Shown: one piece after another, positions 38,278 through 45,823 of the stretch
Layout of the letters: every line of letters starts with the position of its first letter
How positions within the stretch are numbered: position 1 is the first letter of the stretch
Origin: Flavobacteria bacterium MS024-2A
Lineage (GTDB): Bacteria; Bacteroidota; Bacteroidia; Flavobacteriales; Flavobacteriaceae
Assembly: GCA_905182305.1 (NCBI GenBank)
Contig: CAJJBB010000005.1
Span: forward strand, 124,001-188,000
DNA length: 64,000 bases
Reading direction: 5' to 3'
Notes under the pieces: generated by a model
Databases searched by the model: none
What the model was told of the DNA's origin: nothing
Seen by the model: the letters and a program-made list of their open reading frames with translations, nothing else
Translations under genes and position numbers: made by a program

Positions 38278-39042
38278 TTATCCGCGAATGGACTTGATAA
38301 ATGATCCGATTTTTTCTACGCCTTCTTTTTCTAAAAACTGAATGAAAGCTGATCCAATTATAGCACCCTTAGACTGATCACTTGCAGTTTTATAGGTTTC
38401 CCTATTACTAATTCCAAATCCGATTACTGTTGGCGTGTTTAGTTTTAGTGTTGCAATTCGTTTAAAGTATTCAGTTTGTGTATTGCCAAAAGTTGATTTA
38501 GCTCCAGTTACACTTGCGCTAGAAACCATATAAATAAATCCATTAGATACTTTGTCAATATATTTTATGCGTGACTCTGAAGTTTGAGGAGTTATTAAAA
38601 ACATATTATATAATCCATGTTTATCAAATAAGACTTTATAATTTTCATGATATACATCTACAGGAAGATCCGGTATAATAATGCCATCAATACCTATGCT
38701 CTCACAGCGGGAACAAAACTTTTCAATACCATATTGCATCATTGGATTAAAATAGCCCATCAATACTAAAGGAATTTCAATATGTTTTCTAATTCCTTCT
38801 AATTGTGTAAATAGTTTTTCGGTCGTCATGCCATTACGGAGTGCTTGAGTAGAGCTTGCCTGAATGGTCGGACCATCTGCCAAAGGGTCAGAAAATGGTA
38901 AGCCTATTTCAACCATATCAACGCCAGCTGTTTGTAAGTTTTTGAGAATAGGAACAGTATCTTCTAAGGAAGGAAATCCTGCCGAAAAATAGATGGACAG
39001 TAATTTTTTGTTTTCTCTGAATTTTTGATCGATTCGATTCAT
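38278..39042 (-). CDS. trpA: Tryptophan synthase alpha chain
   Basis: 254 aa TIM barrel. Catalytic Glu in DMVEIGLPFSDPLADG and Asp in GIIIPDLPVD; phosphate site VIGFGISN and GAIIGSAFI. It releases indole from indoleglycerol-P for TrpB. Last gene of the operon; it starts within the trpB stop (TAATG). Confidence 0.97.
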   Translation of the reverse strand: MNRIDQKFRENKKLLSIYFSAGFPSLEDTVPILKNLQTAGVDMVEIGLPFSDPLADGPTIQASSTQALRNGMTTEKLFTQLEGIRKHIEIPLVLMGYFNPMMQYGIEKFCSRCESIGIDGIIIPDLPVDVYHENYKVLFDKHGLYNMFLITPQTSESRIKYIDKVSNGFIYMVSSASVTGAKSTFGNTQTEYFKRIATLKLNTPTVIGFGISNRETYKTASDQSKGAIIGSAFIQFLEKEGVEKIGSFIKSIRG

Positions 39043-40223
39043 TATAATTTAAAATAATCAATATAAGTATCTAGGTCTTTATCTCCACGACCAGAACAGT
39101 TAAACACAATAATTTCTTCAGGGTTAAATTTACGAACATCGAGGGCAGCAAAAGCATGTGCAGTTTCTATAGCTGGAATAATTCCTTCCATTTGTGACAG
39201 AGTAAGACCCCAATCCATTGCTTCCTGATCTGGAATGGAAATGAATTCAGCTCGTTTACTTCTAAATAAATTTGCATGCATTGGCCCAACACCAGGATAG
39301 TCTAGACCTGCAGAAATTGAATAAGGTTCTGTAATTTGTCCGTCTGAAGTTTGCATTAAAAGAGTTTTGCTTCCATGAATTATTCCTTCTTTTCCAAGAG
39401 CTGAGGTTGCTGCACTTTTGCCAGAGTCAATTCCTTTTCCAGCCGCTTCAACTGCAATAATATTTACACGCTGATCATTTAGATAATGATAATAAAGTCC
39501 TGCAGCATTACTTCCTCCACCTACACAGGCAATTAAATGATCAGGATAATCTCTACCTTCTAGGGCTTGCAATTGCCATTTTATTTCTTCGCTAATTACC
39601 GATTGAAAACGGGCTACCATATCAGGGTAGGGATGGGGTCCAACTACAGAGCCAATTATATAATGGGTGTTTATCGGATTGTTAATCCAATCTCTTATGG
39701 CTTCATTAGTAGCATCTTTTAGTGTTTTACTTCCAGATTTTGCAGGGCGTACTTCTGCACCTAACATTTTCATTCGAGCAACATTGGGAGCTTGGCGTTT
39801 AATATCTAATTCCCCCATATAAACTATACATTCAATTCCCATGAGTGCACATACTGTAGCTGTTGCAACTCCGTGTTGGCCTGCACCAGTTTCTGCAATA
39901 ATCCGTGTTTTACCTAAACGTTTTGCGACTAAAATCTGACCAATGGTATTATTTACTTTGTGGGCTCCCGTATGACACAAGTCCTCTCTTTTAAGGTATA
40001 CTTTAGTGTTATAGCGCTTTGATAGTCGTTTAGCAAAATATAGCGGTGTAGGTCGTCCTACATAGTTTTTTAATAAAGTGTCAAATTCTTTTTTGAATCC
40101 AGGTTCAGCGGCAATCTTTAAATAATTATCACGTAATTCTTCTACATTAGGATATAACATTTCGGGGATGAAGGCTCCCCCAAAATCTCCATAATATCCT
40201 TTTTCATCAACATTATAATTCAT
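39042..40223 (-). CDS. trpB: Tryptophan synthase beta chain
   Basis: 393 aa PLP enzyme, the TrpB1 type. PLP Lys in REDLCHTGAHKVNNTIGQ; phosphate loop CVGGGSNAAGLYYH; catalytic Glu in ETGAGQHGVATA. It joins indole and serine. It overlaps trpF by 11 bp and trpA by 1 bp. Confidence 0.97.
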   Translation of the reverse strand: MNYNVDEKGYYGDFGGAFIPEMLYPNVEELRDNYLKIAAEPGFKKEFDTLLKNYVGRPTPLYFAKRLSKRYNTKVYLKREDLCHTGAHKVNNTIGQILVAKRLGKTRIIAETGAGQHGVATATVCALMGIECIVYMGELDIKRQAPNVARMKMLGAEVRPAKSGSKTLKDATNEAIRDWINNPINTHYIIGSVVGPHPYPDMVARFQSVISEEIKWQLQALEGRDYPDHLIACVGGGSNAAGLYYHYLNDQRVNIIAVEAAGKGIDSGKSAATSALGKEGIIHGSKTLLMQTSDGQITEPYSISAGLDYPGVGPMHANLFRSKRAEFISIPDQEAMDWGLTLSQMEGIIPAIETAHAFAALDVRKFNPEEIIVFNCSGRGDKDLDTYIDYFKL

Positions 40224-40830
40224 ACAATTCTTTTTTAAATTGTTTTAATTCATTAATTTTTTTTATTCCTGGAACGCTTTCAAATTTACTATTTACATCA
40301 ATAGCATAAAGTGGTAGCGACGTATTTAATATTGTTTTTAGTTCTGAGATGTGTTCTAATCCGATACCCCCACTTAGAAAAAATGGTTTTTCAGAAGGAT
40401 AATGGTTTAAAATATTCCAATCAAATCCAACGCCATTTCCTCCAGGCAACACTCCTTTTGTATCAAAAAGAAAATAGTTACAATTGTTTTCATATTCCTC
40501 TAAAATAGAAAAGTCAAAATCGTCTTTAATAGAAAAGGCCTTAATAACTTCAACTCCTAAATTTTGAATAAATTCACAATATTCGGTTGTTTCAATTCCG
40601 TGTAATTGAACAGCTTGTAGCTGGTGTGAAGTAACAATAGACTGAATATAATCTAACGAGGCATCTACAAAAACGCCTACTTTTTTAATATAAGCTGGAA
40701 GTGGAGGGGTTTCTTTGGAAACATACCTGGAAGAGGGTGCCCAAAAAATAAATCCCATATAATCTGGCTTTAAGCCCTCTAAAGCTTCAATATTTTCACG
40801 TTCTCTCATACCGCATACTTTTAATTTCAT
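40213..40830 (-). CDS. trpF: Phosphoribosylanthranilate isomerase
   Basis: 205 aa TIM barrel: KVCGMRERENIEAL (catalytic Cys), YMGFIFWAPSSRYV, VGVFVDA, QLHG and FFLSGGIGLEHI with AIDVNSKFE (catalytic Asp). Overlaps trpC by 4 bp. Confidence 0.96.
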   Translation of the reverse strand: MKLKVCGMRERENIEALEGLKPDYMGFIFWAPSSRYVSKETPPLPAYIKKVGVFVDASLDYIQSIVTSHQLQAVQLHGIETTEYCEFIQNLGVEVIKAFSIKDDFDFSILEEYENNCNYFLFDTKGVLPGGNGVGFDWNILNHYPSEKPFFLSGGIGLEHISELKTILNTSLPLYAIDVNSKFESVPGIKKINELKQFKKELYEL

Positions 40831-41612
40831 ACGTCTAATTGATTTATGAAATCTTTTGCTGCCAGACCAGGATTGTCAGTTTTCATGAAATTTTCACCAA
40901 CTAAAAAACCTTTATATCCTATGGCTTTTAATTTTTTAATTGAAGCAACTTCACTTATACCACTTTCTGAAACCTTTATGAATTCAGCTGGAATTTCCTC
41001 AGCTAAAGATCGACTTGTTTCAAGGGAGACTTTAAAAGTTTTAAGGTTACGATTATTAACGCCAATTAAATCAATGCTGGGCATGATAGATTTTTCTAAT
41101 TCATTCAAATTATGCACTTCTAACAAAACATCCAGACCTAAACTTTTAGCAGTTTTTGAGAATGATAAAATCTCTTTAGGTGATAAAATAGCTGCTATCA
41201 AAAGAATGGCATCAGCTCCAAAAGCCTTAGCTTCAATAATTTGGTAATCATCTATTATGAACTCTTTGCGTAATAATGGAAAATCTGAAACAGCTCTAGC
41301 AATTGTTAGGTCGTCTAATGATCCTCCAAAATACTTTCCATCGGTTAATATAGACATTCCACAAACCCCTGCACTTTCGTATCCCCTAGCTACCTTTTCA
41401 ACCGATAGGCTGCTATTAATGTTTTGCTTAGAAGGAGAGCGTCTTTTATGTTCAGCGATAATACCTGAATTACTTGCTTTTAATGATTTTGCCAATGATT
41501 TTGTTTTTCTCTCAAAAAGAGGAGAGGATTCCCAATAGGCTGACGGAAAAATCCTTTTTCGTTGATTAACTTCTATTTTTTTATCAGTAATAATAAGATC
41601 TAAAATATTCAT
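40827..41612 (-). CDS. trpC: Indole-3-glycerol-phosphate synthase
   Basis: 261 aa. Visible: IIAEHKRRSPSKQNIN (catalytic Lys), MSILTDGKYFGGSLDDL, LRKEFIIDDYQIIEAKAFGA, LEVHN, GVNNRNLKTF and VSESGI. A stand-alone TrpC, not fused to TrpF. Overlaps trpD by one base. Confidence 0.96.
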   Translation of the reverse strand: MNILDLIITDKKIEVNQRKRIFPSAYWESSPLFERKTKSLAKSLKASNSGIIAEHKRRSPSKQNINSSLSVEKVARGYESAGVCGMSILTDGKYFGGSLDDLTIARAVSDFPLLRKEFIIDDYQIIEAKAFGADAILLIAAILSPKEILSFSKTAKSLGLDVLLEVHNLNELEKSIMPSIDLIGVNNRNLKTFKVSLETSRSLAEEIPAEFIKVSESGISEVASIKKLKAIGYKGFLVGENFMKTDNPGLAAKDFINQLDV

Positions 41613-42604
41613 TAATTACTTATTTTTTGTAAAGTTTTTAAAGCTTTAAATGCTGCACCAGAAGCAAGAGATTCTTTAGCTTTCTCAAAGCCTTCGATTG
41701 GCGATAGATTTAATGCCGTTGCAATTGCCATCCCAGCATTGGCACACACCACATTTGTTTGTGCTTGGGTCCCTTTATGTTGAATGACATTCATAAATAT
41801 CCTTGCTGAAGATTCAATACTTTCTCCTCCTTTAATTTCTTCAGCTCTTAGAGGTAAAAGACCAAAATCTGAGGAATTTAAAACTCGTTCACTATCGTTA
41901 CTAAAAACTTTAGTTGATCCAGTCAAAGATATTTCATCATATCCATCTAATGAATATAATATGGTGAAATTTGTATCAGTTTTTTGGAACAAATAGTGGT
42001 ATAAACGTGCTATTTCTAAATTAAACACTCCTGTTAGTTGGTTTTTTGGAAAGGCTGGATTTACTAGTGGCCCTAACATATTAAAAAAAGTTTTAACTCC
42101 CAGTTCTTTACGAACAGGAGCAACATTTTTCATAGCTGGATGAAATAAAGGTGCATGTAATACACAAATACCAGCTTTGTCAATAGCACGTTTTAAAAAA
42201 TCTACTTTATTTGAAAATTTAATTCCTAAGGCCTCCATTACATTACTAGATCCACAGCCAGAAGATACTCCGTAATTCCCATGTTTTGTTACCTTTACTC
42301 CAGCACCTGCTGTAATAAAAGATGAAAGAGTTGATATGTTAAAAGTATCTTTTCCATCTCCGCCAGTTCCGCAAAGGTCTATAGTATTAAAATCACTTAG
42401 ATCTACAGCTAAGCATAATTCTAAGAGTGCAGTTCTAAAACCCTCTAACTCATCTAGACTTATACTTCTCATCATATAGACTGTAAGAAAAGAAGCAATT
42501 TGTGAGGGACTATATTGGTTATCAGCAATATTTATGATGATTTGCCTTGCTTCTGTTTTGCTTAGTTTTTCATGCTGAATAAGTCGGTTTAATACAGTTT
42601 TCAT
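41612..42604 (-). CDS. trpD: Anthranilate phosphoribosyltransferase
   Basis: 330 aa. PRPP-binding CGTGGDGKDTFNISTLSSF, KHGNYGVSSGCGSSNVMEALG, and LHAPLFHPAMKNVAPVR. Second step of the pathway. It follows trpG by 2 bp. Confidence 0.96.
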   Translation of the reverse strand: MKTVLNRLIQHEKLSKTEARQIIINIADNQYSPSQIASFLTVYMMRSISLDELEGFRTALLELCLAVDLSDFNTIDLCGTGGDGKDTFNISTLSSFITAGAGVKVTKHGNYGVSSGCGSSNVMEALGIKFSNKVDFLKRAIDKAGICVLHAPLFHPAMKNVAPVRKELGVKTFFNMLGPLVNPAFPKNQLTGVFNLEIARLYHYLFQKTDTNFTILYSLDGYDEISLTGSTKVFSNDSERVLNSSDFGLLPLRAEEIKGGESIESSARIFMNVIQHKGTQAQTNVVCANAGMAIATALNLSPIEGFEKAKESLASGAAFKALKTLQKISN

Positions 42605-42606
42605 AA

Positions 42607-43170
42607 TTAACTATTAATCCAGTTTTCTAATATTTTTTTCCCATTAGGGGTAAGAATTGATTCCGGGTGGTATTGAACTCCCCGTACATCGTAAGTTTTA
42701 TGTCGTAAGGACATTAACTGTCCTTCTTCGTCAAAAGAAGTAGCAACCAAATCACTTGGCAAGGGAGTTTCTACTACCCAAGAATGGTAGCGACCAATTT
42801 CAAAAGTTTTTGGAAGGCCGTTGAAAAGAATATCGTCCTCAGTGACGGTTACAGGAGTTGCAATGCCATGATACACTTTGTCGAGGTTGATTAATTTGGC
42901 GCCAAAAACTTCACCAATGGCTTGTTGTCCAAGACAAATTCCTAAGATTTTTTTTGTGGGTGCATAGCGTTCAATAGTAGCTTTCAATAATCCAGATTCA
43001 TCAGGAATTCCTGGACCGGGAGAAAGAAGAATGCGAGAAAATTTTTCTAATTCATCTAATTTAAATTTATCATTGCGTTTAACTATCGCTTCACATCCAA
43101 GTTCTTCTAAGTAGTGTACCAAATTATATGTGAATGAATCGTAATTATCTATAACAAATACTTTTTCCAT
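42607..43170 (-). CDS. trpG: Anthranilate synthase component II (glutamine amidotransferase)
   Basis: 187 aa class I amidotransferase: VIDNYDSFTYNLVHYLE, ILLSPGPGIPDE, the nucleophile Cys in GICLGQQAIGE, and His/Glu in GVQYHPESIL. It gives ammonia to TrpE; the KVYHGIATPV loop is typical. It follows trpE by 1 bp. It could also serve PabB, as no separate pabA is seen. Confidence 0.96.
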   Translation of the reverse strand: MEKVFVIDNYDSFTYNLVHYLEELGCEAIVKRNDKFKLDELEKFSRILLSPGPGIPDESGLLKATIERYAPTKKILGICLGQQAIGEVFGAKLINLDKVYHGIATPVTVTEDDILFNGLPKTFEIGRYHSWVVETPLPSDLVATSFDEEGQLMSLRHKTYDVRGVQYHPESILTPNGKKILENWINS

Positions 43171-43171
43171 A

Positions 43172-44572
43172 TTATATGTTTTCAGCCAATGTTAAAGCCT
43201 TGTCTAAGGCCCCCAGTTTATTGTACACTTCTTGTAATTCACTCTCTGGAATAGAATCAGCGACAATTCCAGCTCCTGCTTGATAATGTAGTAGATGGTT
43301 TTTGCTTAAAAAAGAACGGATAATAATTGCATGGTTAAAATTACCGTCAAAGTCCATATAACCAATGGCACCTCCATAAGCATTTCGTTGTGTTGTTTCA
43401 TAACGATCAATTAATTTTAATGCATTGTGTTTTGGTGCTCCACTCAAGGTTCCAGCTGGAAAAGTATCAGCCACTACTCGAAATGTCTTAGCAGCTTTTT
43501 TCATGGTACAAGTCACCTTTGAAACTAAGTGGATTACATGTGAATAAAATTGAATTTCTCGATTCTTTTCTACTATCACAGAAGACCCATTTCGACTTAA
43601 ATCATTTCGTGCTAAATCAACAAGCATAACGTGTTCACTGTTTTCTTTAGGGTCTTTCGCTAATTCTTTGGCAGCTTTTGCATCATGAATATCTTCTCCT
43701 GTTCTTTTAAAGGTCCCTGCAATCGGATGTATTTCTGCTTTACCGTTTTGAACGATTAGTTGCGCTTCGGGAGAACTACCAAAAATTTTGAAATCACCAT
43801 AATCAAAGAAAAATAAGTAAGGAGATGGATTAATGGAACGTAAGGTTCGATATACATTAAATTCGTCTCCTTTAAATTCCTGAGAAAAACGACGCGAAAG
43901 TACCAATTGAAAAACATCGCCTCGGAAGCAATGTTCTTTTCCTTTTTTAACAAAATCAAGAAATTCAACATCGGTGAGGTTTGATGTTTTGTTTCCTAGT
44001 TTTTTAAAACTAAATGGAGTACTGTTTTTAGTATTTAAAAGAAGCTCTATTCTTTCTAAATTATGCTTTCCTAAGTATACATGAGAAAATAAGTGCGCTT
44101 CGTGATTGAAAAGACTAATAGCAATAATATTTTGATACACGGCATAATAAAGATCAGGAATATCGTGTCCTGGTTTAGTTTTGTCTAATGTTATATTTTC
44201 AAATTGATCTACGGCATCATGAGCGATGTATCCGAACATACCATTACTAATAAATTTAAACGGATATTTTTTACTATCAAATTGTTTTGAAAATTCATGA
44301 ATTTTCTCTGGAATATTAATTGTTTTATCAACTACTGTTTTTGAATTACTTTCATCAGGATATATAGTAGAAAGTATTCCATTTTTTAGTTCAATAGAAG
44401 CAATTGGGTTACAACAGATATATGAAAAATCATTATTATTTGCGTGATAATCACTACTCTCTAACAATAGAGAATGAGGGAAAACATCCCTCAGTTTTAA
44501 GTATGCGCTTACCGGTGTAAGGGTATCAGCCAGTATTTTTTTATGCTCCGTTTGAAGTGAAAAAATTTTCAT
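43172..44572 (-). CDS. trpE: Anthranilate synthase component I
   Basis: 466 aa from ATG 44572 (MKIFSLQTEHKKILADT); an alternative start at 44608 lies inside the attenuator hairpin and is rejected. Chorismate-binding domain: FQLVLSRRFSQEF, HPIAGTFKRTGED, VDLARNDLSR, TFPAGTLSGAPK and YGGAIGYMDFDG. The N-terminal LLLESSDYH keeps the LLES motif of the Trp feedback site, so the enzyme is likely inhibited by tryptophan. First gene after the leader. Confidence 0.96.
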   Translation of the reverse strand: MKIFSLQTEHKKILADTLTPVSAYLKLRDVFPHSLLLESSDYHANNNDFSYICCNPIASIELKNGILSTIYPDESNSKTVVDKTINIPEKIHEFSKQFDSKKYPFKFISNGMFGYIAHDAVDQFENITLDKTKPGHDIPDLYYAVYQNIIAISLFNHEAHLFSHVYLGKHNLERIELLLNTKNSTPFSFKKLGNKTSNLTDVEFLDFVKKGKEHCFRGDVFQLVLSRRFSQEFKGDEFNVYRTLRSINPSPYLFFFDYGDFKIFGSSPEAQLIVQNGKAEIHPIAGTFKRTGEDIHDAKAAKELAKDPKENSEHVMLVDLARNDLSRNGSSVIVEKNREIQFYSHVIHLVSKVTCTMKKAAKTFRVVADTFPAGTLSGAPKHNALKLIDRYETTQRNAYGGAIGYMDFDGNFNHAIIIRSFLSKNHLLHYQAGAGIVADSIPESELQEVYNKLGALDKALTLAENI

Positions 44573-44588
44573 TTTAGGTCCATTAAAA

Positions 44589-44613
44589 AAGGCTTGTCGT
44601 GATGACAAGCCTT
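44589..44613 (-). terminator. trp attenuator hairpin (region 3:4)
   Basis: Read on the minus strand: AAGGCTTGTC, loop ATCAC, GACAAGCCTT, then TTTT, a 10-bp perfect stem followed by T residues. It lies between trpL and trpE, 16 bp before the trpE ATG. Minus-strand bases 44648-44639 (TCGTGAAGAC) can pair 9 of 10 with 44606-44597 (GTCATCACGA), which covers the 5' arm and loop, so an antiterminator would prevent this hairpin. Confidence 0.88.
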
Positions 44614-44642
44614 AAGTATATATTATATAAATCAGTTAGTCT

Positions 44643-44702
44643 TCACGAGGATGAGTTGCTATTCGTGTGCCACCAGCTGTTTAAAATTGTTATTTTATTC
44701 AT
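44643..44702 (-). CDS. trpL: trp operon leader peptide
   Basis: 19 aa: MNKITILNSWWHTNSNSSS, stop TGA. Tandem Trp codons are at 44675-44670. Bases 44667-44663 (CACGA) can pair with 44648-44644 (TCGTG) as a 1:2 stem when the ribosome clears the peptide. A ribosome stalled at the Trp codons would cover region 1 and free region 2 to pair with the terminator's left arm. Too short for ordinary gene callers. The ATG is only 5 bp after the -7 box, so the message is nearly leaderless. Confidence 0.88.
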   Translation of the reverse strand: MNKITILNSWWHTNSNSSS

Positions 44703-44707
44703 TGGAT

Positions 44708-44738
44708 CAAATGTAATATAAAAATATAATAACCCCAA
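44708..44738 (-). promoter_or_regulatory. trp operon promoter
   Basis: Minus strand: TTGG at 44738-44735 (one mismatch to TTTG), a 19-bp spacer, then TACATTTG at 44715-44708 (exact TAnnTTTG). The predicted start site is within a few bases of the trpL ATG at 44702. Confidence 0.68.
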
Positions 44739-44752
44739 TCTTCGAACAATAA

Positions 44753-44836
44753 TTATTTATTTGCATGCGATCCGTCACAGTATCCTTCAGAATTTTGTGT
44801 GTTTCCGCAGCCACATTTTGGTCTTTCAATATTCAT
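44753..44836 (-). CDS. 27-aa CDGSH-like iron-sulfur peptide
   Basis: A frame of 27 codons, too short for most gene callers. It reads KCGCGNTQNSEGYCDGSHAN after a six-residue start. The pattern CxC...CDGSH gives the three Cys and one His that bind the 2Fe-2S cluster in CDGSH (mitoNEET-like) proteins, here with almost nothing else. It lies 2 bp after yceI and just upstream of the trp promoter. It may be the end of the marR-yceI transcript. Alternatively it is a remnant of a longer CDGSH gene. Confidence 0.6.
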   Translation of the reverse strand: MNIERPKCGCGNTQNSEGYCDGSHANK

Positions 44837-44838
44837 AT

Positions 44839-45405
44839 TTAAAATTTTAATTTAATATCTAAATCGAATTCATTGTTAATTGCTATATCACCAAGATTAT
44901 CAAAAAACGAGTTTGATCTATAACGAATATCGTATTTAGTTCTATCTATTGAAAGTTTTGCCATAGCTTCATTATTTTCTACATGCATATCGAAAGTGAT
45001 AGGATTGGTAATTCCTTTGATGGTTAATTCTGCTGTCACTTCATGGTGATTTTCTGTTTTCATGATTGCTTTTTTAATCGCAAGTGAGGCAATAGGAAAT
45101 TTTTCAATCCCAAAAAAATCTTTGGACTTTAAATGGCCTTCTAGTTTGCCTTTGTATTCGCCTGATAGATCCGTTACAATTATTGAGGTCATATCAACTT
45201 TAAAACTTCCGCCTGAAATTTTGTTTTCAGTCATTTCAAGATTTCCAGAAATTAAATTGATATTTCCTTTATGTTGTCCCGTCACTTTTTTTGCTAACCA
45301 ATTAATAGAACTTTCAGTAGTATTGATTTCCATTTCTACAGACTGGCTCCATGAATTTAGGCTAGCTGTAGCAATAATAATTAGTGTTAAAATATTTGTT
45401 TTCAT
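44839..45405 (-). CDS. YceI family protein
   Basis: 188 aa with a Sec signal peptide ending near ASLNSWSQS. YceI/lipocalin-like beta-barrel pattern: INTTESSINWLAKKVTGQHKG, GSFKVDMTSIIVTDL, LKSKDFFGIEKFPIASL and AELTIKGITNPITFDM. The family binds isoprenoid-like lipids in the periplasm. It follows the marR gene by 7 bp and is probably under its control. Confidence 0.93.
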   Translation of the reverse strand: MKTNILTLIIIATASLNSWSQSVEMEINTTESSINWLAKKVTGQHKGNINLISGNLEMTENKISGGSFKVDMTSIIVTDLSGEYKGKLEGHLKSKDFFGIEKFPIASLAIKKAIMKTENHHEVTAELTIKGITNPITFDMHVENNEAMAKLSIDRTKYDIRYRSNSFFDNLGDIAINNEFDLDIKLKF

Positions 45406-45412
45406 AGTATTT

Positions 45413-45823
45413 TTAATTAATTGAATTTAATATAGAGATTAAACTATTTAAATCTTTAGAAGAGATGTTCTTAAGTACTTTTTTTTCAATTTCATCCGTA
45501 ATTGGATCTATTTTTTTTAAAAAATCCAAACCATCCTCAGTGATAAATAATTCAATTTTCCTTCTGTTTTTTATACAAACATTCCGTTTGACTAGTTTTT
45601 TCTGAATTAATTTATCAATTAATCGAGTTGTATTACTCCTTTTATGTACCATTCTATCTTGAACAGTAAATAAATTCGCAGCTATTCCCTTTTGACCTCT
45701 CAATATTCTCAAGACATTAAATTGTTGCTCTGAGATTTCATATGGCTTAAGTCCATTTAAAATCATCTCCGAGATAAATGCGCTTGTTTTTAAAATCGAT
45801 ATAATTGCATGTTTAGAATTCAT
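45413..45823 (-). CDS. MarR-family transcriptional regulator
   Basis: 136 aa winged helix. Recognition region: SEQQFNVLRILRGQKG, then MVHKRSNTTRLIDKLIQKKLV and the wing KNRRKIELFITEDGLDFL. MarR proteins bind palindromes and are released by small ligands. A 14-bp palindrome lies over its own promoter 15 bp upstream. Likely regulates itself and yceI. Confidence 0.94.
   Translation of the reverse strand: MNSKHAIISILKTSAFISEMILNGLKPYEISEQQFNVLRILRGQKGIAANLFTVQDRMVHKRSNTTRLIDKLIQKKLVKRNVCIKNRRKIELFITEDGLDFLKKIDPITDEIEKKVLKNISSKDLNSLISILNSIN

Follow-up and report, generated by a model that had tools for sequence, protein, structure and literature searches.

Is the DNA between the promoter and the first gene of this trp operon a ribosome-mediated attenuator, and how does it relate to the attenuators already known? 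The DNA analyzed, here called the window, is a 64,000-nt stretch from Flavobacteria bacterium MS024-2A (assembly GCA_905182305.1, contig CAJJBB010000005.1, positions 124,001 to 188,000). From the sequence elements found there, their possible pairings, and their conservation among relatives, we infer ribosome stalling, transcription termination, and a response to tryptophan. The element is very probably a ribosome-mediated trp attenuator, which would turn the trp genes on when tryptophan is short.

The trp operon and its leader

On the minus strand the order of elements is TTGG, 19 nt, TACATTTG, ATCCA, a 19-codon frame encoding MNKITILNSWWHTNSNSSS, a T-tailed hairpin, and trpE. The promoter consists of the −33 element TTGG (44738 to 44735) and, 19 nt away, the −7 element TACATTTG (44715 to 44708), which is of the TAnnTTTG type. 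The leader frame runs from the ATG at 44702 to a stop codon ending at 44643, and it contains tandem Trp codons, the proposed stall site, at 44675 to 44670. The intrinsic terminator (44613 to 44585) has a 10-bp stem, the loop ATCAC, and a T run; its hairpin (44613 to 44589) folds with −14.7 kcal/mol (z, −7.5), and the whole leader of the window folds better than its shuffled versions (0 of 200 as good).

The genes that follow, all on the minus strand, are trpE (anthranilate synthase component I, 43172 to 44572), trpG (42607 to 43170), trpD (41612 to 42604), trpC (40827 to 41612), trpF (40213 to 40830), trpB (39042 to 40223), and trpA (38278 to 39042). All seven were named by NCBIfam, five of them at or above the curated cutoff; for TrpE and TrpF the best match scored below its cutoff. 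Because the first start given by the open reading frame lister, TTG at 44608, lies inside the terminator, we took ATG 44572 as the start of trpE. Down to 38278, the genes of trpEGDCFBA are separated by at most 2 nt or overlap slightly. Thus, the promoter, the 19-codon peptide with tandem Trp codons, the 10-bp terminator with a T run, and the seven trp genes without gaps, all given in a preliminary description of this DNA, were borne out.

Several other minus-strand frames lie nearby. Just upstream of the trp promoter is a 27-residue frame (44753 to 44836) encoding MNIERPKCGCGNTQNSEGYCDGSHANK, with a CDGSH-type motif; it scored 14.8 bits (E, 0.035) against Pfam PF09360, below the cutoff of 29.5, and similar DNA occurs at the same place in some relatives (L010, L011, and L020). 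Further upstream are genes for a YceI-family protein (44839 to 45405) and a MarR-family regulator (45413 to 45823). A four-codon frame, ATGGACCTAAAATGA (44569 to 44583), overlaps the trpE start codon and was not seen in L008 or L015.

Conservation of the leader peptide and the alternative structures

A TrpE search at an E value of 1e-60 found the protein in 41 of 60 genomes, the window's own included; of the genome contigs with TrpE, the best 80 were kept. We analyzed 108 trpE loci, made up of the 30 genome matches listed (one of which is the window) and 78 of the best 80 contigs; L062 and L063 were left out because their matches start inside trpE. The loci are related by descent, and some of the 108 are the same genome present in both collections, so the counts below are not independent trials. 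Among the best 80 contigs, the nearest record with a genus name is Candidatus Arcticimaribacter (Flavobacteriaceae; L043), with 82% TrpE identity. L048 was excluded from the group of loci of the window's genus (the genus group); its TrpE is 80% identical, but it has a Flavobacterium-type leader on a short contig. Viral contigs were also scanned for trpE, and no relative was found there.

An ATG-started frame with Trp-Trp lies upstream of trpE in 105 of the 108 loci. The other three are L038, whose contig begins 34 nt before trpE; L064, which has a GTG-started frame with Trp-Trp-Trp; and L028, of the same genus, whose leader has one Trp codon and one Cys codon (TGT). The script that looked for ATG-started Trp-Trp frames missed both L064 and L028; they were counted later, L028 by hand. 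Thus, among the 107 loci with enough upstream sequence to be usable, all 107 have a leader with Trp codons and 106 have Trp-Trp, which answers the preliminary description's proposal to look for conserved tandem Trp codons in relatives. The Trp frame stays at a fixed place in these loci while the neighboring leader codons vary. Flavobacterium-type leaders have three Trp codons, versus two in the window. The L028 contig also contains N letters, and its single Trp codon may be genuine or may reflect a sequencing error.

By the rule of our script, a terminator is present in 106 of the 107 usable loci, the exception being L065. These 106 loci contain 88 distinct leader-to-terminator sequences, 35 in the genus group and 53 outside it. 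Alignment A1 holds 34 of the 35 genus group sequences (L023, which contains N, was omitted). The Trp codons occupy columns 46 to 51 of A1, where only the row of L028 differs, and the terminator is nearly letter-invariant, loop included, with 98.8% of cells paired. The recurrence of leader and terminator in both position and sequence among relatives is more than would be expected by chance.

The antiterminator would be formed by regions 2 and 3. Region 2, TCGTGAAGAC (44648 to 44639), includes both TCGTGA, here called box A, and the leader stop codon; it can pair at 9 of 10 positions with region 3, GTCATCACGA (44606 to 44597), which is the top of the terminator stem plus the loop. The fragment from 44660 to 44597, the RNA that would lie exposed in front of a stalled ribosome just after synthesis of the loop, folds as the antiterminator (−11.7; 4 of 200 shuffles as good). 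In the window the antiterminator and the terminator share bases and are mutually exclusive, in agreement with the preliminary description.

Among the 88 distinct sequences, TCGTGA, the complement of the loop sequence TCACGA, is exact in 72 and differs at one or two positions in the others. In A1, the pairs between columns 73 to 79 and 121 to 126 are kept in 28 to 34 of the 34 rows (one row has a single gapped pair), whereas the GAC:GTC pairs, which extend the helix to its full length, are kept in just 4 to 10. What relatives conserve as the antiterminator is the 6 bp formed between TCGTGA and the terminator loop. The additional GAC:GTC pairs are a local feature; the 9-of-10-bp helix first described exists in the window, but only its 6-bp core is conserved. 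The full nine-pair helix was paired in 70.2% of A1 cells, versus 63.6% when the partner was slid by three columns; a shuffle control was uninformative because the columns vary too little.

Complementarity was also assessed in each sequence against shuffles of the stretch that separates the Trp codons from the terminator. A first version, in which region 3 ended at the loop, gave no excess complementarity (P ≤ 0.05 in 1 of 35 genus group sequences and 2 of 53 others). Because the pairing needs the first bases of the terminator's 3′ arm, which region 3 then excluded, we repeated the test with the core. Region 2 against the loop plus the first bases of the 3′ arm gave P values of ≤0.05 in 27/35 and 44/53 sequences (71/88 overall). 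When the whole 5′ arm of the terminator was added to the core, the values were 22/35 and 47/53; sequences from outside the genus commonly have a further helix with this arm, of the AAGC:GCTT type. A swap test of 21 variant loops was weak: a median of 31% of swaps were as good, and the loop's own partner was among the best 5% only for L071, L081, L082, and L085.

The third pairing, between regions 1 and 2, is weaker. In the window, CACGA (region 1, 44667 to 44663) and TCGTG (44648 to 44644) form a stem of −3.8 kcal/mol, and 8 of 200 shuffles were as good. Three or more nucleotides of box A are paired with region 1 in 34/35 genus group sequences and in 53/53 others (87/88), and the pairing reached P values of ≤0.05 in 24/35 and 10/53, respectively (34/88). 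A general fold of the sequence after the Trp codons, made before this focused test, had reached that level in 14/35 and 5/53. The stem as drawn in the window was paired in 72.4% of A1 cells, versus 75.0% in column shuffles and 64.2% after a three-column slide. Thus, the CACGA/TCGTG stem of the preliminary description is present in the window and complementarity between regions 1 and 2 is common, but the exact 5-bp stem is not conserved because the helix differs between sequences.

For the stems, the comparison favored the preliminary description on conservation but not on covariation. In most distinct sequences region 2 is complementary to both region 1 and the loop of the terminator, but neither the 34 rows of A1 nor RNAalifold showed a double compensatory change in the 1:2, 2:3, or 3:4 pairings; the case for the structure is therefore made by complementarity and position, both conserved, and not by covariation. 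The locus has a leader with Trp codons before a trp operon, a terminator before the first gene, an antiterminator that excludes it, and a 1:2 hairpin that could sequester region 2, variable though the stem is.

Ribosome position and the start of transcription

We assumed an E. coli-like ribosome, with its leading edge 15 nt beyond the first P-site base. With the A site at the last Trp codon, region 2 starts 7 to 11 nt past this edge in all 88 distinct sequences. A ribosome positioned at the leader stop codon would cover the first base of region 2 in 31/35 genus group sequences and 52/53 others (83/88) and would fail to reach it in 5/88; it would cover the whole of box A in 26/35 and 44/53, and not fully in 18/88. 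Six loci have leaders of 13 residues (L036, L037, and L043 to L045 in the genus group and L058 outside it). In these the stop codon lies further upstream, so shut-off would lean more on the 1:2 hairpin after the ribosome is released.

The attenuator would then work as follows. Transcription would start about 1 nt before the leader ATG, and therefore the ribosome would load at the 5′ end of the RNA. When Trp-tRNA is scarce, the ribosome would stall at the two Trp codons with its front edge at about 44660 to 44663, if its footprint is like that of E. coli; region 1 would then be hidden, and TCGTGA of region 2 would stay free. As the 5′ arm and loop of the terminator emerged, region 2 would pair with the loop and the top of the stem and block the terminator, and RNA polymerase would proceed into trpE. 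With ample tryptophan, the ribosome would reach the stop codon inside region 2 and cover that region, or would leave and allow the 1:2 hairpin to form; in both cases the terminator could form and transcription would end.

The terminator by itself accounts for the most stable structure, and it is all that the RNAalifold consensus fold of A1 shows. It could be a constitutive or tryptophan-independent terminator below the promoter, the Trp-rich short frame being fortuitous or vestigial. We consider this very improbable: a frame without function would not be expected to keep its position at all 107 usable loci when the leader codons around it vary, and the terminator loop, which is complementary to region 2, is conserved too. 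Such conservation of the loop is unusual in an intrinsic terminator and would suit a binding site, and so the leader RNA could instead be read by a trans-acting factor or a ligand (a TRAP-like protein, a T-box, or a riboswitch) and not by a translating ribosome. The conservation of the loop is, however, explained by its pairing with TCGTGA, whereas the conserved Trp-codon frame and the ribosome-scaled spacing would be left unexplained. At Rfam gathering scores the window contains no riboswitch or T-box and only six tRNAs. A sensor of this kind seems to us extremely improbable. With high confidence, we read the element as a ribosome-mediated transcription attenuator of trpEGDCFBA and a diverged homologue of the Bacteroid-trp leader RNA.

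The position of the 5′ end was predicted from the promoter. In Flavobacterium psychrophilum the TAnnTTTG box is located at −12 to −5 (PMC9723704), and promoters of Flavobacterium johnsoniae have a G at −5. Placed in the same way, the box in the window predicts a start at about 44703, ~1 nt before the ATG, so the leader may be near-leaderless. TTGG or TTGGGG is found at the −33 place in several close relatives (L007, L008, and L010 to L012) but not at every locus. All 44 scored loci of the genus group have 4 to 6 nt between the end of the box and the leader ATG, a count that includes some genomes present in two collections; the spacer is 5 nt in 34, 4 nt in 7, and 6 nt in 3, giving predicted 5′ regions of 0 to 2 nt (1 nt in the window). 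Outside the genus group, by a rule that favors the nearest in-frame ATG, spacers fell into two classes, 4 to 8 nt in 26 of 62 loci and 16 to 20 nt in 35, with one unassigned; L061, counted at 16 nt, is better read as having a GTG start and a spacer of 4 nt, in the shorter class. Within the window, 3 of 62 mechanical ATG frames of at least about 100 codons have the box 4 to 6 nt upstream.

In such bacteria, leaderless transcripts and those with very short 5′ regions form a minority: they make up 5.5% of 890 in F. psychrophilum (PMC9723704), at most 13% (≤10 nt) of the F. johnsoniae transcripts for which a promoter is probable (87% are longer), and about 3.7% (<10 nt) in Bacteroides thetaiotaomicron. 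The same attenuator might have a conventional leader, with transcription starting further upstream and an ordinary 5′ untranslated region. This would be compatible with attenuation, and both the reliance on a promoter-based start and the 16- to 20-nt class outside the genus group speak for it. The uniform box-to-ATG spacing of the genus group does not, and the window has no other ATG between the box and the Trp codons; on balance we think a conventional leader unlikely.

Taking these observations together, we lean toward a reading in which the trp leader of this genus is leaderless or nearly so. The promoter would fix the ATG 0 to 2 nt from the transcription start and so synchronize ribosome entry with the polymerase without a ribosome-binding site, the antiterminator would act by capturing the loop of the terminator together with the top of its 3′ arm, and the arrangement would be specific to this operon and not a feature of all leaders. 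On the last point, leaders before the prephenate dehydratase gene in the same genus have ordinary spacing (15 to 19 nt in 16 of the 17 found).

Of 27 prephenate dehydratase loci, 19 had an aromatic leader together with a promoter box, including 17 of 21 in the same genus. The window's own genome has a candidate Phe/Tyr attenuator before this gene (L120, on its contig C10), with the leader MNKTFFYYNNFYYFYSEADRTL, a spacer of 19 nt, and a T-tailed hairpin. Upstream of hisG the same genome has a candidate His attenuator (L116, contig C6), consisting of TACATTTG, 5 nt, MKLMNIHHHYLEVSNES, and then a T-tailed hairpin; by a strict rule, His-rich leaders were present at 8 of 29 hisG loci. No leader peptides were seen before ilvD, thrA, leuA, or hom by the promoter-plus-ATG rule and by eye.

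Relation to known attenuators

The Rfam model RF01692 (Bacteroid-trp) matches the window at 44722 to 44604 over its full length (model positions 1 to 131) with 43.7 bits (E, 3e-4 to 6e-4), which is whole-model homology below the gathering score of 49 bits. At that score, 20 of 20 chosen Flavobacterium-type loci passed and 0 of 20 others did (16 from the genus group and 4 neighbors), and a search at an E value of 0.001 with stricter filters found none of 36 same-genus relatives. Three weak matches elsewhere in the window's own genome had E values of 3.7 to 6.3. These scores place the window's lineage as a diverged homologue just outside the limit of the curated family. The model does not include the loop pairing because it ends in the 5′ arm of the terminator.

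The novelty that the preliminary description implied did not hold. Bacteroid-trp appeared in 2010 in Table 1 of a paper on RNA motifs as a probable cis-regulatory RNA of Bacteroidetes (PMC2864571). In 2019 it was reported as conserved upstream of the F. psychrophilum trp operon and compared with the E. coli leader (PMC6414381), and in 2021 strong clues were reported for leader-peptide attenuation before amino acid operons of the same species (PMC9723704). Our literature search listed nothing further on trp or amino acid attenuation in Bacteroidetes. The F. psychrophilum leader likewise precedes a flavobacterial trp operon and has been discussed as an attenuation leader (PMC6414381), but it belongs to another genus, and what was reported for it is a prediction together with transcript structure (PMC6414381, PMC9723704). 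The window and RF01692 share the phylum, the place before the trp genes, a Trp-rich leader frame, and the segments AUGAA, UGGUGG, and AAGGCUUGUC; the window differs in scoring below the cutoff, in having two Trp codons and not the three of the Flavobacterium type, and in its sequence-variable 1:2 hairpin.

In the trp attenuator of E. coli, the leader peptide has two Trp codons and the RNA can adopt alternative 1:2, 2:3, and 3:4 structures; the window resembles it in all of these. In contrast to E. coli, the window has a conserved antiterminator core whose partner is the terminator loop plus the first bases of its 3′ arm, and no member of the Trp repressor (TrpR) family was found in the window's genome, which is 86.5% complete. 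A leaderless trp leader is known from the alphaproteobacterium Sinorhizobium meliloti, in which the 5′ end of the RNA is the ATG of trpL (PMC7298713); in the window such a 5′ end is predicted solely from the promoter.

As a kind of system, then, the attenuator is ordinary: it is already known and was predicted earlier for the phylum, and the window has a divergent, compact version of it. What is modestly new is the gap in Rfam coverage of this lineage (the current RF01692 at its curated cutoff misses the tested loci of the marine lineage), the loop-directed antiterminator, and the predicted near-leaderless start. The broad comparison supports a predicted attenuator family in a phylum that, to our knowledge, has unusual promoters and initiates translation without Shine-Dalgarno sequences. 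It also offers a natural setting for studying how polymerase and ribosome are coupled when a transcript is, as predicted here, near-leaderless.
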